Below, in pieces: positions 44,449-50,277 of a DNA stretch of 64,000 nucleotides; position 1 is the stretch's first letter; each line of letters begins with the position of its first letter. Position numbers and translations under genes: made by a program. The notes below the pieces were generated by a model that was not told the origin of the DNA, searched no databases, and saw nothing but the letters and a program-made list of their open reading frames with translations. Origin of the DNA: a candidate division Zixibacteria bacterium HGW-Zixibacteria-1 (lineage in GTDB: Bacteria; Zixibacteria; MSB-5A5; GN15; PGXB01); NCBI GenBank assembly GCA_002838945.1, contig PGXB01000031.1, positions 1-64,000 on the forward strand. Direction: 5' to 3'.

Positions 44449-44796
44449 TTATGCTTTCTGCTCCTGGAACAGGTGAACATCACGCTGCGGGAACGGAATC
44501 GAAATATTGTTGGCATCCAGGGCCATTTTGATATTTTCCATCAGGTCGAAATAAACCGCCCAGTAATCGGCTGTTTTTACCCAGGGGCGGACGGCAAAAT
44601 TGACCGAACTGTCGGCCAATTCGAGCACGCGCACGGTGGGGGCGGGATCCTTGAGTATGCGCTGATCGGCTTTAATAATTCCCTCCATGACATCTTTGGC
44701 TTTTTTGATATCGTCGCCATAGCCGATACCGAATACCAAATCGATGCGGCGGGTTTCCTCGGCAATGTAATTAATAATATTACCGCCGGAAAATAT
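44449..44796 (-). pseudogene. MscS-type channel, C-terminal part (out of frame)
   Basis: From the segment IFSGGNIINYIAEETRRID (44796 downwards) to the end, this reads as the MscS middle/C-terminal cytoplasmic domain (LVFGIGYGDDIKKAKDVM ... VRPWVKTADYW). It follows the N-terminal part (44780-45205) in another frame. The frame itself is open to 44838, but the upstream residues do not match the family. Together with the N-part it represents one damaged channel gene. Confidence 0.8.
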
Positions 44797-45205
44797 GTAT
44801 GGTTTCGACCGAGCCGCTGCTACCGCCGGCTTCGACATAATGGCCCACCTCGAAAGGCCGAAAAATGATTAGCATGATGCCGGCGGCGAAATTCGACAGT
44901 GAGCCCTGTAGTGCAAAACCGACCGCCAGACCGGCGGCGCCGAGGATGGCAATAAAGGATGTCGTTTCCACGCCGAGTGTGCTCAATGAGGCCAGAGCGA
45001 CCACGACCAGCAGCATGATTCGGGTAAGACTTATGACGAATTTTGCCAGGGTTTTATCGGTGGCCTTCTTTTCAAAAGCACGTTTGAGAACACGGCTGAT
45101 AACGCTGATGACCATGCGGCCGATCACGAAGATCAGGATGGCGCCGATGATTTTCAAACCATAGGCCGTGCCATAGGCCCACAGCCATTCCATTGCTTTT
45201 TCCAT
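44780..45205 (-). pseudogene. MscS-type mechanosensitive channel, N-terminal part (truncated)
   Basis: 141 residues from the ATG at 45205 (GGAGAG just upstream). It contains the three membrane helices, including the pore helix ILGAAGLAVGFALQGSLSNF, and the start of the beta domain (FRPFEVGHYVEAGGSSG ... VETIHIF), then terminates after two stray Arg. The usual T.L.T.DN..V.VPN segment is missing. The next homologous residues are in another frame (44796 on). It would make a channel without its cytoplasmic cage, probably inactive. Confidence 0.8.
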
Positions 45206-45464
45206 TTTCTCTCCTTTCAATGTTTATTGAACTTTTTATGACATATTCAATTCTCAATTCCATTGATTATCTCGATTTACATTAAAAAAACCAATATTCA
45301 ACATCGATGTTTCACTTATAATGAAAAACCGGAATAATGTCTAATGTTTAATTATCAAATGGCTTTGAATAAACCAGCGATATCTATCGCAGTCCGGCCC
45401 GGTCTTGTCGTTGGGTGTTGCGGTATGTGATTGTGCGGTATAGTGTTACATTTATCGAAAGTGA
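45206..45464. other. Intergenic region between broken mscS and the sORF promoter
   Basis: About 260 AT-rich bases. Near the right edge TGCGGTAT occurs twice (45419-45426 and 45434-45441, 15 bases apart), 24 bases before the -35 box at 45465; this direct repeat could bind an activator. Otherwise nothing recognised. Confidence 0.4.
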
Positions 45465-45492
45465 TTGACTTTTAGTGCGGCGGCGCTATATT
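45465..45492 (+). promoter_or_regulatory. Promoter upstream of the sORF and histidine ammonia-lyase
   Basis: -35 TTGACT (45465-45470), 16-base spacer TTTAGTGCGGCGGCGC, -10 TATATT (45487-45492). Transcription would start at about 45499, practically at the sORF's ATG (45502). Very close in sequence to the promoter at 17819-17846, including the spacer. Confidence 0.65.
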
Positions 45493-45501
45493 ATATCTGT
45501 T

Positions 45502-45612
45502 ATGAACGAATGGAAAAGCAATAACGATGATCATCCGAAACCGGATACGCATCCGGTTTGTCACATTGCCCGTTATCAGCCGAAGAGTTCATCCGGTCTT
45601 CAGGATGAATAA
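45502..45612 (+). CDS. 36-residue sORF (possible leader peptide) before hutH
   Basis: ATG to TAA, 36 codons, reading MNEWKSNNDDHPKPDTHPVC then HIARYQPK... It contains three His within ten residues, a Cys and two acidic runs. It lies directly under a strong promoter with almost no 5' leader, so it would be a leaderless message. Inside it sit hairpins AAACCGGAT/ATCCGGTTT (45538-45559) and TTCATCC/GGATGAA (45588-45609). A His-sensing leader for the ammonia-lyase gene 72 bases downstream is an inference. It may also simply be a small protein or a chance frame. Confidence 0.4.
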   Translation: MNEWKSNNDDHPKPDTHPVCHIARYQPKSSSGLQDE

Positions 45613-45684
45613 CCCGGCTGAGAAATTCTTTATTCACCAAGAAAATTTATTCCGTTTAATGTGTAAAATGATTGTGAGGTATAA

Positions 45685-47208
45685 ATGACTATAGTTCTGG
45701 ATGGTTCAGGACTGACCATAGAAAAACTGGTCAGGATTGCCCGGTATAATGAAAAGGTGGAGCTTCACCCGGATGCCATAACGCGAATCAACAAATGCCG
45801 CGCCATGCTCGAGAGGAAAATCGAGGCCAGGGAAATCATGTACGGTGTCAATACCGGTATCGGCGAGTTCTCGGAGGTTGTACTTTCGGACGAGCAGGTC
45901 AAGGATTTTCAGAAATATTTAATATACAATCATGCGGCCGGTATCGGCGACCCGGCGCCGATCGAGTATGTTCGCGGCGCCATGGCGGCGCGTATAAATG
46001 TGCATGCTCATGGAAACTCGGGAAGCCGCCTGGAAATAACTCAGACACTGATCGATATGCTCAACAAAGGCGTCACGCCGTTTGTCTGTCAGAAAGGATC
46101 AGTCGGGGCATGCGGCGATTTGGCCCCGATGTCCCAGATTGCATTGTTATTGATGGGCGAGGGGAAAGCGTATTATCAGGGTGAATTGCTGGATGGCAAA
46201 GAAGCGCTTAACCGGGCGGGGATTCCGATTCCGGGATTGAAAGCGCGTGACGGGCTGGCCACAATCAACGGCTCCAATGTTCTTACCGCGATGAGTGCCA
46301 TATTTCTGTATGATGCCAATCGCTGGCTTAAACAGGCCGAAATTGCGGCCGCGATGTCGCTCGAGGCGCTCAAGGCCAACATGAAACCATACACGCCGAA
46401 ACTGCATGAAGTGCGCGGTTTCAAGGGCGCCGTCAGATCGGCCCGGTCGATTCTCATGATGGTGGCGGGCGGCGACCTGGTTGACGGGCGGATCAAGTGC
46501 AAGGTACAGGATGCTTACTCGATGCGTTCCACACCGCAGGTGGTCGGGGCGGCCCATGATGCTCTGGCTTATGCCCGTTCGCAAGTCGAAATCGAGCTGA
46601 ATGGTGTCGGCGACAACCCGATATTTTTCCCTGATGAAAATATACAGCTTTCCGGGGCCAATTTCCAGGGGTCGCCGGTATCGGTGCCGATGGATATGGC
46701 CGGTTACTGTATCACCATGGTTTCGGTCATGTCGGAACGCCGCATGAATCGTCTCAATAACCCGGCCCTGAGTGTCGGTCTGCCGCCGTTTCTGACCAAA
46801 GGGGCGGGGATGTTTTCGGGCATGATGCTCTCGCAGTACACCGCCGACATGCAAATTGTCGAGCAGCGGATTCTTTCGGCGCCGGCCTCGGTCCAGTCGA
46901 TTCCGGCCGCGGCCGACCAGGAGGATTTTGTCTCGATGGGGATGAATACCGCCATCAAGAATTTCCAGATACTCGATAATGCTTATGGTGTGCTCGGTAT
47001 CGAACTGATGGCGGCGGCTCAGGCGCTCGATTTCCGCGAATATAAATTCGGCAAGGGAACGACGAAGGCCAAAGATATCATTCGCAAGTATGTCGATTTT
47101 CTCGAAATCGACCGTCCACTTTACCCTGATCATACGAGGATGAAGGAACTGGTCAAATCGTGCGAGATTCTTGAAGAAGTCGAGAAGGAGATAGGATCGC
47201 TGGGGTAG
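45685..47208 (+). CDS. hutH: Histidine/aromatic amino acid ammonia-lyase
   Basis: 507 residues, normal for HAL. It removes ammonia from L-histidine to give urocanate, using the MIO group made from an Ala-Ser-Gly triad. Here the triad is Ala142-Cys143-Gly144 (GSVGACGDLAPMSQ). Other family parts are present: catalytic Tyr in YGVNTGIGEF, GDNPIF, and QDXXS-like DQEDFVSMG. Substrate choice between His, Phe and Tyr cannot be settled by eye; hutU, hutI and hutG are absent here. GTGAGG precedes the ATG. Possibly controlled by the sORF and promoter upstream. Confidence 0.85.
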   Translation: MTIVLDGSGLTIEKLVRIARYNEKVELHPDAITRINKCRAMLERKIEAREIMYGVNTGIGEFSEVVLSDEQVKDFQKYLIYNHAAGIGDPAPIEYVRGAMAARINVHAHGNSGSRLEITQTLIDMLNKGVTPFVCQKGSVGACGDLAPMSQIALLLMGEGKAYYQGELLDGKEALNRAGIPIPGLKARDGLATINGSNVLTAMSAIFLYDANRWLKQAEIAAAMSLEALKANMKPYTPKLHEVRGFKGAVRSARSILMMVAGGDLVDGRIKCKVQDAYSMRSTPQVVGAAHDALAYARSQVEIELNGVGDNPIFFPDENIQLSGANFQGSPVSVPMDMAGYCITMVSVMSERRMNRLNNPALSVGLPPFLTKGAGMFSGMMLSQYTADMQIVEQRILSAPASVQSIPAAADQEDFVSMGMNTAIKNFQILDNAYGVLGIELMAAAQALDFREYKFGKGTTKAKDIIRKYVDFLEIDRPLYPDHTRMKELVKSCEILEEVEKEIGSLG

Positions 47209-49491: not shown

Positions 49492-50277
49492 ATGAGAAGT
49501 TTATTGGGATTTATGCTTTCCCTCGCGATCAATATAATTTTGTTCACCCCGGCTTTTGCCGATCTGACCGAAAACCGGGAACTTAACCTGGTTGCAGACG
49601 ATATCAGGATGTTTGAAATCGACTGCGGGGCGGGGAATCTCTATATTCGGGGTGTCGAGGGGCTCACGAATATCGAAGTTGAGGCTGAAATTATCATTGA
49701 GGGCATTAATGAAAGCCGGGCGCGGGATTTTATGGATAAATATCTCCGGCTGGATCTGATCGAGAAGCAGGGAAAGGCCGTATTGACCAGCTATTTCGAT
49801 AATTCGATGCCGACGACGTTGTTTTCATTCGGGAGACAGTCTGCGTTAATCAATCTGGTTATCAAAATTCCCCAAAATATGGGCTTGAAGATTGACGACG
49901 GTTCCGGCGATTCGAGGATCGAGAATATTTTCGGTGATGTCGATTTCGATGACGGTTCGGGTGATCTCGAAATAGAATTTATTAACGGCAATGTTAATAT
50001 AGACGATGGCTCCGGCGAACTGGTTGTGTCCAATATCGACGGCCGGGTGATAATCGACGACGGTTCGGGAGAAATCCGCATTAAGGATGTCACCGGCGAC
50101 GTCGATATTGATGACGGTTCCGGGGATATTGTGGTAAGGAAAGTCGGCGGAAGTGTTGCGGTCGATGACGGCTCGGGCGATATCAACATTCGCCACGTCA
50201 GCCGAGATGTTGATATTATCGATGACGGTTCGGGCGACGTGAGCATTTCCTATGTCGATGGCCGCGTGAGAAGATAA
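49492..50277 (+). CDS. Exported DUF4097-like beta-helix protein with DDGSGD repeats
   Basis: 261 residues. Signal peptide to about residue 23 (FTPAFA). Residues about 25-125 have the start of DUF4097 proteins. From about residue 131 there are seven tandem repeats of 18 residues (one of 19), each DDGSG[DE]-[ILV]-x-[IV]-x-x-[IV]-x-G-x-V-x-[IV]. This is the look of a right-handed beta-helix with acidic, possibly calcium-binding, turns. Role unknown. GGAG precedes the ATG. Ends at a bidirectional terminator. Confidence 0.85.
   Translation: MRSLLGFMLSLAINIILFTPAFADLTENRELNLVADDIRMFEIDCGAGNLYIRGVEGLTNIEVEAEIIIEGINESRARDFMDKYLRLDLIEKQGKAVLTSYFDNSMPTTLFSFGRQSALINLVIKIPQNMGLKIDDGSGDSRIENIFGDVDFDDGSGDLEIEFINGNVNIDDGSGELVVSNIDGRVIIDDGSGEIRIKDVTGDVDIDDGSGDIVVRKVGGSVAVDDGSGDINIRHVSRDVDIIDDGSGDVSISYVDGRVRR

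Follow-up and report, generated by a model that had tools for sequence, protein, structure and literature searches.

A short open reading frame (sORF) stands directly before a gene for histidine ammonia-lyase (HAL) in a member of Ca. Zixiibacteriota, and the question raised by this locus is what such an sORF does there. To our knowledge, few bacterial leader peptides switch on amino-acid breakdown through a free amino acid (TnaC and SpeFL), and an unrelated leader that senses histidine would help to tell what ligand sensing in the ribosomal tunnel requires. An earlier note on this DNA had read the sORF as an attenuation leader that senses histidine through its His codons and hairpins, and had remarked that translation would then have to favour, not stop, expression of the catabolic gene. 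We count the latter remark as supported, and the sensing mechanism did not hold in orthologues. The conserved feature is the last 12 residues of the peptide up to the stop codon, which the earlier note did not mention. We propose, with a probability of roughly 0.6, that the sORF encodes a cis-acting leader peptide that halts the ribosome translating it once the stop codon is reached, letting HAL be expressed, probably when histidine is plentiful.

Features of the HAL locus

The window (the whole stretch of DNA analyzed, 64 kb of a PGXB01 contig) contains the following features at this locus.

45465..45492, + strand: promoter-like sequence TTGACT-16-TATATT, a predicted sigma-70-type promoter, from a scan and from comparison with other leaders
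~45498-45500, + strand: predicted transcription start, adjoining the ATG at 45502
45502..45612, + strand: leader ORF of 36 codons plus TAA (45610-45612), encoding MNEWKSNNDDHPKPDTHPVCHIARYQPKSSSGLQDE
45502..45573, + strand: N-terminal 24 codons of the leader, hardly conserved in sequence, nearly fixed in codon number
45538..45559, + strand: exact 9-bp hairpin AAACCGGAT/ATCCGGTTT, within f1 (the window's family) not kept beyond the genus
45574..45609, + strand: conserved C-terminal block YQPKSSSGLQDE, immediately 5' of the stop codon
45588..45609, + strand: 7-bp hairpin in the last eight leader codons, exact in the window copy
45613..45684, + strand: 72-nt spacer with a ribosome-binding site (RBS), GAGG, at 45677-45680; candidate Rho-loading region
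45685..47208, + strand: HAL, 507 aa (PF00221), the gene thought to be controlled

The reading frame, its distance of 72 bases to HAL and both hairpins had been described in the earlier note and are as it gave them; the frame is conserved in orthologues, and none of 200 letter shuffles of the sORF reached a 9-bp hairpin. The three clustered His residues are also present, spread over 11 residues rather than the ten stated.

The HAL of the window scores 529 bits against PRK09367 (cut-off 524) and 502 bits against hutH, below the equivalog cut-off of 539, so histidine is a likely, not a certain, substrate. It is the only HAL of the genome, in which hutU and hutI lie side by side on another contig (L127, G000:C56). 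Rfam gave no match in the window at the gathering score, NCBIfam no family for the window's leader, and Pfam none for 52 of 53 leaders scanned (the 19-residue leader was left out). We found no published description of such a leader in the open-licence literature, preprints being outside the scope of the search; a conserved leader can stay unnoticed in an uncultured phylum.

Occurrence and conservation of the leader

HAL was sought in 98 genomes, and upstream DNA was read at 69 HAL loci and later at two more. An sORF with the tail Y-x4-[SAG]-S-G-L-Q-D-[E/T]-stop, or small variants of it, precedes 56 of the 57 readable HAL genes of f1 and of f4, another family of the same order (14/14 and 42/43, respectively), and none of 14 HAL genes of other families (f2 0/5, f5 0/2, f7 0/2, f8 0/2, f9 0/1, f13 0/2). 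The sole f4 exception, G072 (L164), has a TTGACA box shortly before the start of HAL itself and no leader. This locus may represent a natural deletion of the leader. The f2 HAL orthologues, at 85-87% identity, also stand without it, and together with G072 they indicate that the enzyme can do without the leader peptide. In a quick HAL protein tree the window-type enzymes do not sort by family, so the tree speaks neither for nor against a loss of the leader in f2.

When 132 genomes of the phylum were searched with a profile made from 53 leaders, 56 matches at E <= 2.9e-5 came from 55 genomes, each belonging to f1 or f4, and the next best match was at E 0.0018. Because 53 of the 56 matches had themselves gone into the profile, the search shows absence elsewhere rather than giving independent proof. 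Family f3, whose HAL upstream regions were not read singly, yielded no profile match better than E 0.15. Fourteen f1 and f4 genomes had no profile hit: nine have no HAL match, four contain HAL pieces missing the 5' end (G054, G057, G069 and G073), and one is G072. No leader match better than E 0.0075 was seen in the nine genomes without a HAL match, which are 66-98% complete, and a missing contig can explain some of these absences.

The tail motif used as a search pattern matched 45 times in the 98 genomes, 42 times before HAL, and the reversed control pattern matched three times. The three matches away from HAL (G066, G060 and G071) comprise a 7-aa ORF, an 18-aa ORF and a read-through frame. 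The idea that the leader also stands ahead of different genes, or in further groups, was considered and rejected; off-HAL matches are as many as those of the reversed control (3 vs 3). One further match in the 132 genomes (G102) has no stop codon. In the GTDB collection, a pattern in which Leu had to be CTN, Gln had to be CAG and the Tyr had to be present, and which therefore misses variants, was found in 19 stretches, of which 16 are Zixibacteria (one is labelled Ignavibacterium, with the same coordinate as G006). No HAL was found within the three other stretches, one of which extends just some 400 bases beyond the motif; another feature among them is a 22-aa ORF from Helicobacteraceae whose end fits the motif. 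The GTDB records are titled as metagenome-assembled genomes; the leaders and HAL loci compared in this study are related to one another, and their starts are predicted.

The leader precedes two types of HAL. Seven f4 genomes encode a divergent HAL with 38-43% identity to that of the window, and the leader is present before all seven, ending SGMQDE in two; the five divergent enzymes that were scanned are all hutH (589-609 bits vs the cut-off of 539). The divergent HutH of G017 (L128; 41% identity to the window's HAL) and the window-type HAL of G034 (L129) are flanked alike, by an exonuclease-WYL gene and a sulfatase gene. Given these neighbours and the kept leader, HAL was seemingly replaced in place by a non-orthologous HutH, and such a replacement suggests that the leader is tied to HAL activity.

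Within 54 leaders compared, Y(-12) and G(-5) are invariant, S(-6) and Q(-3) occur in 53 each, L(-4) in 52 and D(-2) in 51, counting from the stop codon. At the final position E is found 29 times and T 17 times; R(-13) and P(-10) are each kept in 35, and position -9 is variable. Variant tails include SGMQDT in G055 and AKGLQDT in G075. The pN/pS ratio of the last 12 codons is 0.164 for the 14 f1 leaders and 0.333 for 40 f4 leaders, compared with 0.82 and 0.78 for codons -24 to -13, 0.93 and 0.96 for codons -34 to -25, and 1.5-3.2 for the last 12 codons read in shifted frames. The tail is thus kept as protein and the N-terminal rest is almost free, and from these ratios we infer that the leader is translated. 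All three stop codons, TAA, TAG and TGA, are in use, which together with conservation up to the stop fits an event at termination. Two marks of arrest leaders are found here: a short, apparently coding ORF that lies just ahead of a gene for amino-acid catabolism and reads in the same direction, and peptide-level conservation next to the stop codon.

The earlier note had suggested a comparison of orthologous upstream regions, in which the sORF proved to be kept at all but one of the readable f1 and f4 loci, and the His codons and hairpins did not. There is no His in 31 of 53 leaders and no conserved His run, and sensing through His codons was therefore rejected. The 9-bp hairpin was compared among the 14 f1 leaders, where it recurs in the same-genus relative only, as a 7-bp form; L021, also of f1, has an unrelated 9-bp hairpin elsewhere in its leader. 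Hairpin attenuation as a general mechanism was likewise rejected, since the hairpins seen in the window are not conserved and terminator-like sites occur in just 5 of 53 spacers.

Although its N-terminal sequence is hardly conserved, the leader is 36 codons long in 30 of 53 cases and 35-37 codons in 44 (46/55 once G055 and G075 are added, at 36 and 35 codons as counted by eye). Start codons were assigned as an ATG with a Shine-Dalgarno sequence, else the first ATG, else the first start, so length played no part in the choice; a simpler rule gave 35-37 codons in 42/53. This count does not include L112, which a contig end truncates. The outliers are L023 of f1 (19 codons), L104 and L013 (26), L036 (32), four leaders of 33 codons, and L109 (38). 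For the 50 leaders of at least 30 codons, the standard deviation is 1.1 codons in length and 7.3 nt in the gap between the -10 box and the start codon. Gap and length are correlated at -0.50, and part of the constraint may thus fall on the distance from promoter to stop.

A promoter scan performed at chance level by itself (3 found vs 2.7 expected in shuffles), and it was the comparison that bore out the promoter near the ATG: upstream DNA sufficed for 53 leaders, and the best-scoring box that our script placed ahead of each was exactly TTGACA (43) or TTGACT (10). A promoter-like sequence is thus conserved before the leaders, with one call, that of L104, differing between two scripts. In all 14 f1 copies the start codon follows the end of the -10 box at a distance of 6-12 nt, so near that their mRNA would be leaderless or nearly so. 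Of 39 f4 copies, 31 have a gap of 15-25 nt, and GGAGG or GAGG stands within many of the gaps.

The proposed arrest and competing explanations

In the proposed mechanism, the sigma-70-type promoter would start transcription at or just before the leader ATG, and a ribosome would translate the 36 codons and arrive at the stop codon with the conserved tail filling the upper exit tunnel. In a ribosome that has reached a stop codon, the last 12 residues occupy the stretch from the peptidyl-transferase centre to the constriction of the tunnel. Abundant histidine or a close metabolite, together with the tail, would block peptide release, leaving the ribosome on the stop codon, where it would protect the spacer, most likely from Rho, and transcription would reach HAL. 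With no ligand, the peptide would be released, the spacer exposed, and the transcript ended early. Histidine is the most likely ligand, and urocanate or other metabolites are also candidates. A tail conserved in cis, ahead of a catabolic gene and where RNA structure is not conserved, is what an arrest of the TnaC or SpeFL kind would leave.

Several properties of the spacer bear on this mechanism. It measures 60-201 nt (median 80, standard deviation 23; 54 loci), and a read-through fusion of leader and HAL was rejected on these lengths, which are not all multiples of three. Spacer RNA has no conserved structure (mean z -0.27 in 14 f1 and -0.36 in 39 f4 copies), that of the window showed no intrinsic terminator, and the genome has a gene for Rho. 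C exceeds G in 41 of 53 spacers, compared with 23 of 53 regions that precede the promoter and with 5 of 15 loci where HAL has no leader, in rows that are related; the sORF itself has the same bias (43/53), and that of the spacer is modest and suggestive at most.

TnaC (E. coli tnaCAB, tryptophan breakdown) is similar in being the product of a short ORF that leads into a gene for amino-acid catabolism; in both cases the key residues lie close to the C-terminus and stop codon, a spacer follows the ORF, and the genome has a Rho gene. As described for TnaC, high tryptophan stalls the ribosome and blocks Rho, whereas at low tryptophan a rut site behind the ORF becomes exposed and transcription is terminated by Rho; residues 9-24 were modelled in the region from the peptidyl-transferase centre to the constriction (PMC8429421). 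However, the residues Trp12, Asp16 and Pro24 of TnaC (PMC8429421), equivalent to positions -13, -9 and -1, have no counterparts here. TnaC also has 24 residues rather than about 36, the f1 copies here look leaderless, and the near-fixed length of 36 codons is not required by the TnaC model. The ORF of SpeFL (E. coli speF, ornithine) is similar in length to the leader studied here. SpeFL is likewise described as arresting at termination before a catabolic gene in response to an amino acid (PMC8429421, PMC7815308). It has an N-terminal sensor domain (PMC8429421), whereas here, in a comparison by description, mainly the last 12 residues are kept. In mdtU, the E. coli mdtJI leader, conservation is also strongest at the C-terminus, but base-pairing of that segment with the RBS of the target is predicted there (PMC7815308), and the pairing test at our loci was negative.

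A more specific proposal, which we put forward tentatively and with some doubt, is that this arrest peptide evolved independently and senses free L-histidine in the tunnel, being leaderless in f1 and selected for a length of 36 codons with two-thirds of its sequence nearly free. If so, the N-terminus must reach a fixed place, e.g., the tunnel exit, or the stalled ribosome must stand at a fixed distance from the start. In SecM, insertions just before the arrest sequence can weaken arrest (PMC11190716). The 56 sequences, with their two starting modes, two types of downstream enzyme and cases that lack the leader, form a natural set.

Alternatively, the leader could be a small protein acting in trans, the released 36-residue peptide binding HAL or a partner through its conserved tail. 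Such a role would account for the protein-level constraint on the tail, and a free peptide could need the near-fixed total length. It would, however, leave two thirds of the protein nearly neutral, and the leader lies directly before HAL in 56 cases and was never found by itself; moreover, the same tail accompanies both enzyme types, which would require them to keep a common binding surface at 38-43% identity. We consider this explanation unlikely. Somewhat less likely still is that the act of translation matters and the peptide sequence does not, translation opening the HAL RBS or keeping RNA polymerase going. The near-constant length of the ORF and its position after the promoter would suit this, but the retention of residues -12 to -1 while third codon positions vary is left unexplained, spacer length varies from 60 to 201 nt, and pairing of the tail codons with the RBS is not conserved (mean z -0.27; below -2 in 2 of 53).

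An RNA element, i.e., a riboswitch or a protein-binding hairpin in which the reading frame is incidental, is very improbable. The terminal 7-bp hairpin is complete in 7 of 14 f1 copies, and its outer pair is T-A in five and C-G in six of the 14; yet it is complete in none of 40 f4 copies, the window has no Rfam match, and the low in-frame pN/pS values against the high ones in shifted frames point to the peptide. Classical attenuation by His codons and alternative hairpins, in the reverse sense, is the least probable of all: hisL and other His-codon attenuators do have a leader ORF before a histidine-related gene, and the window copy combines three His codons with a perfect 9-bp hairpin, but the leaders here have neither conserved His codons nor a conserved terminator hairpin and their target is catabolic, so this mechanism could survive only as a genus-specific addition.

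Other observations on HAL and the window

The MIO cofactor of ammonia-lyases is usually formed from Ala-Ser-Gly. Window-type HALs have Ala-Cys-Gly at this site (GSVGACGDLAP) in 30 of 30 rows, i.e., the window and 29 related sequences, and the divergent HutH proteins have TSG or CSG in four of five (four were read by script). Elsewhere in the window, on the minus strand at 44449-45220, an MscS-like channel gene is seemingly split into overlapping frames, 45220-44780 and 44838-44449, its Pfam domain being cut where the first frame ends. A 261-aa protein encoded at 49492-50277, which has no Pfam match, contains many DDGSGD-like repeats.
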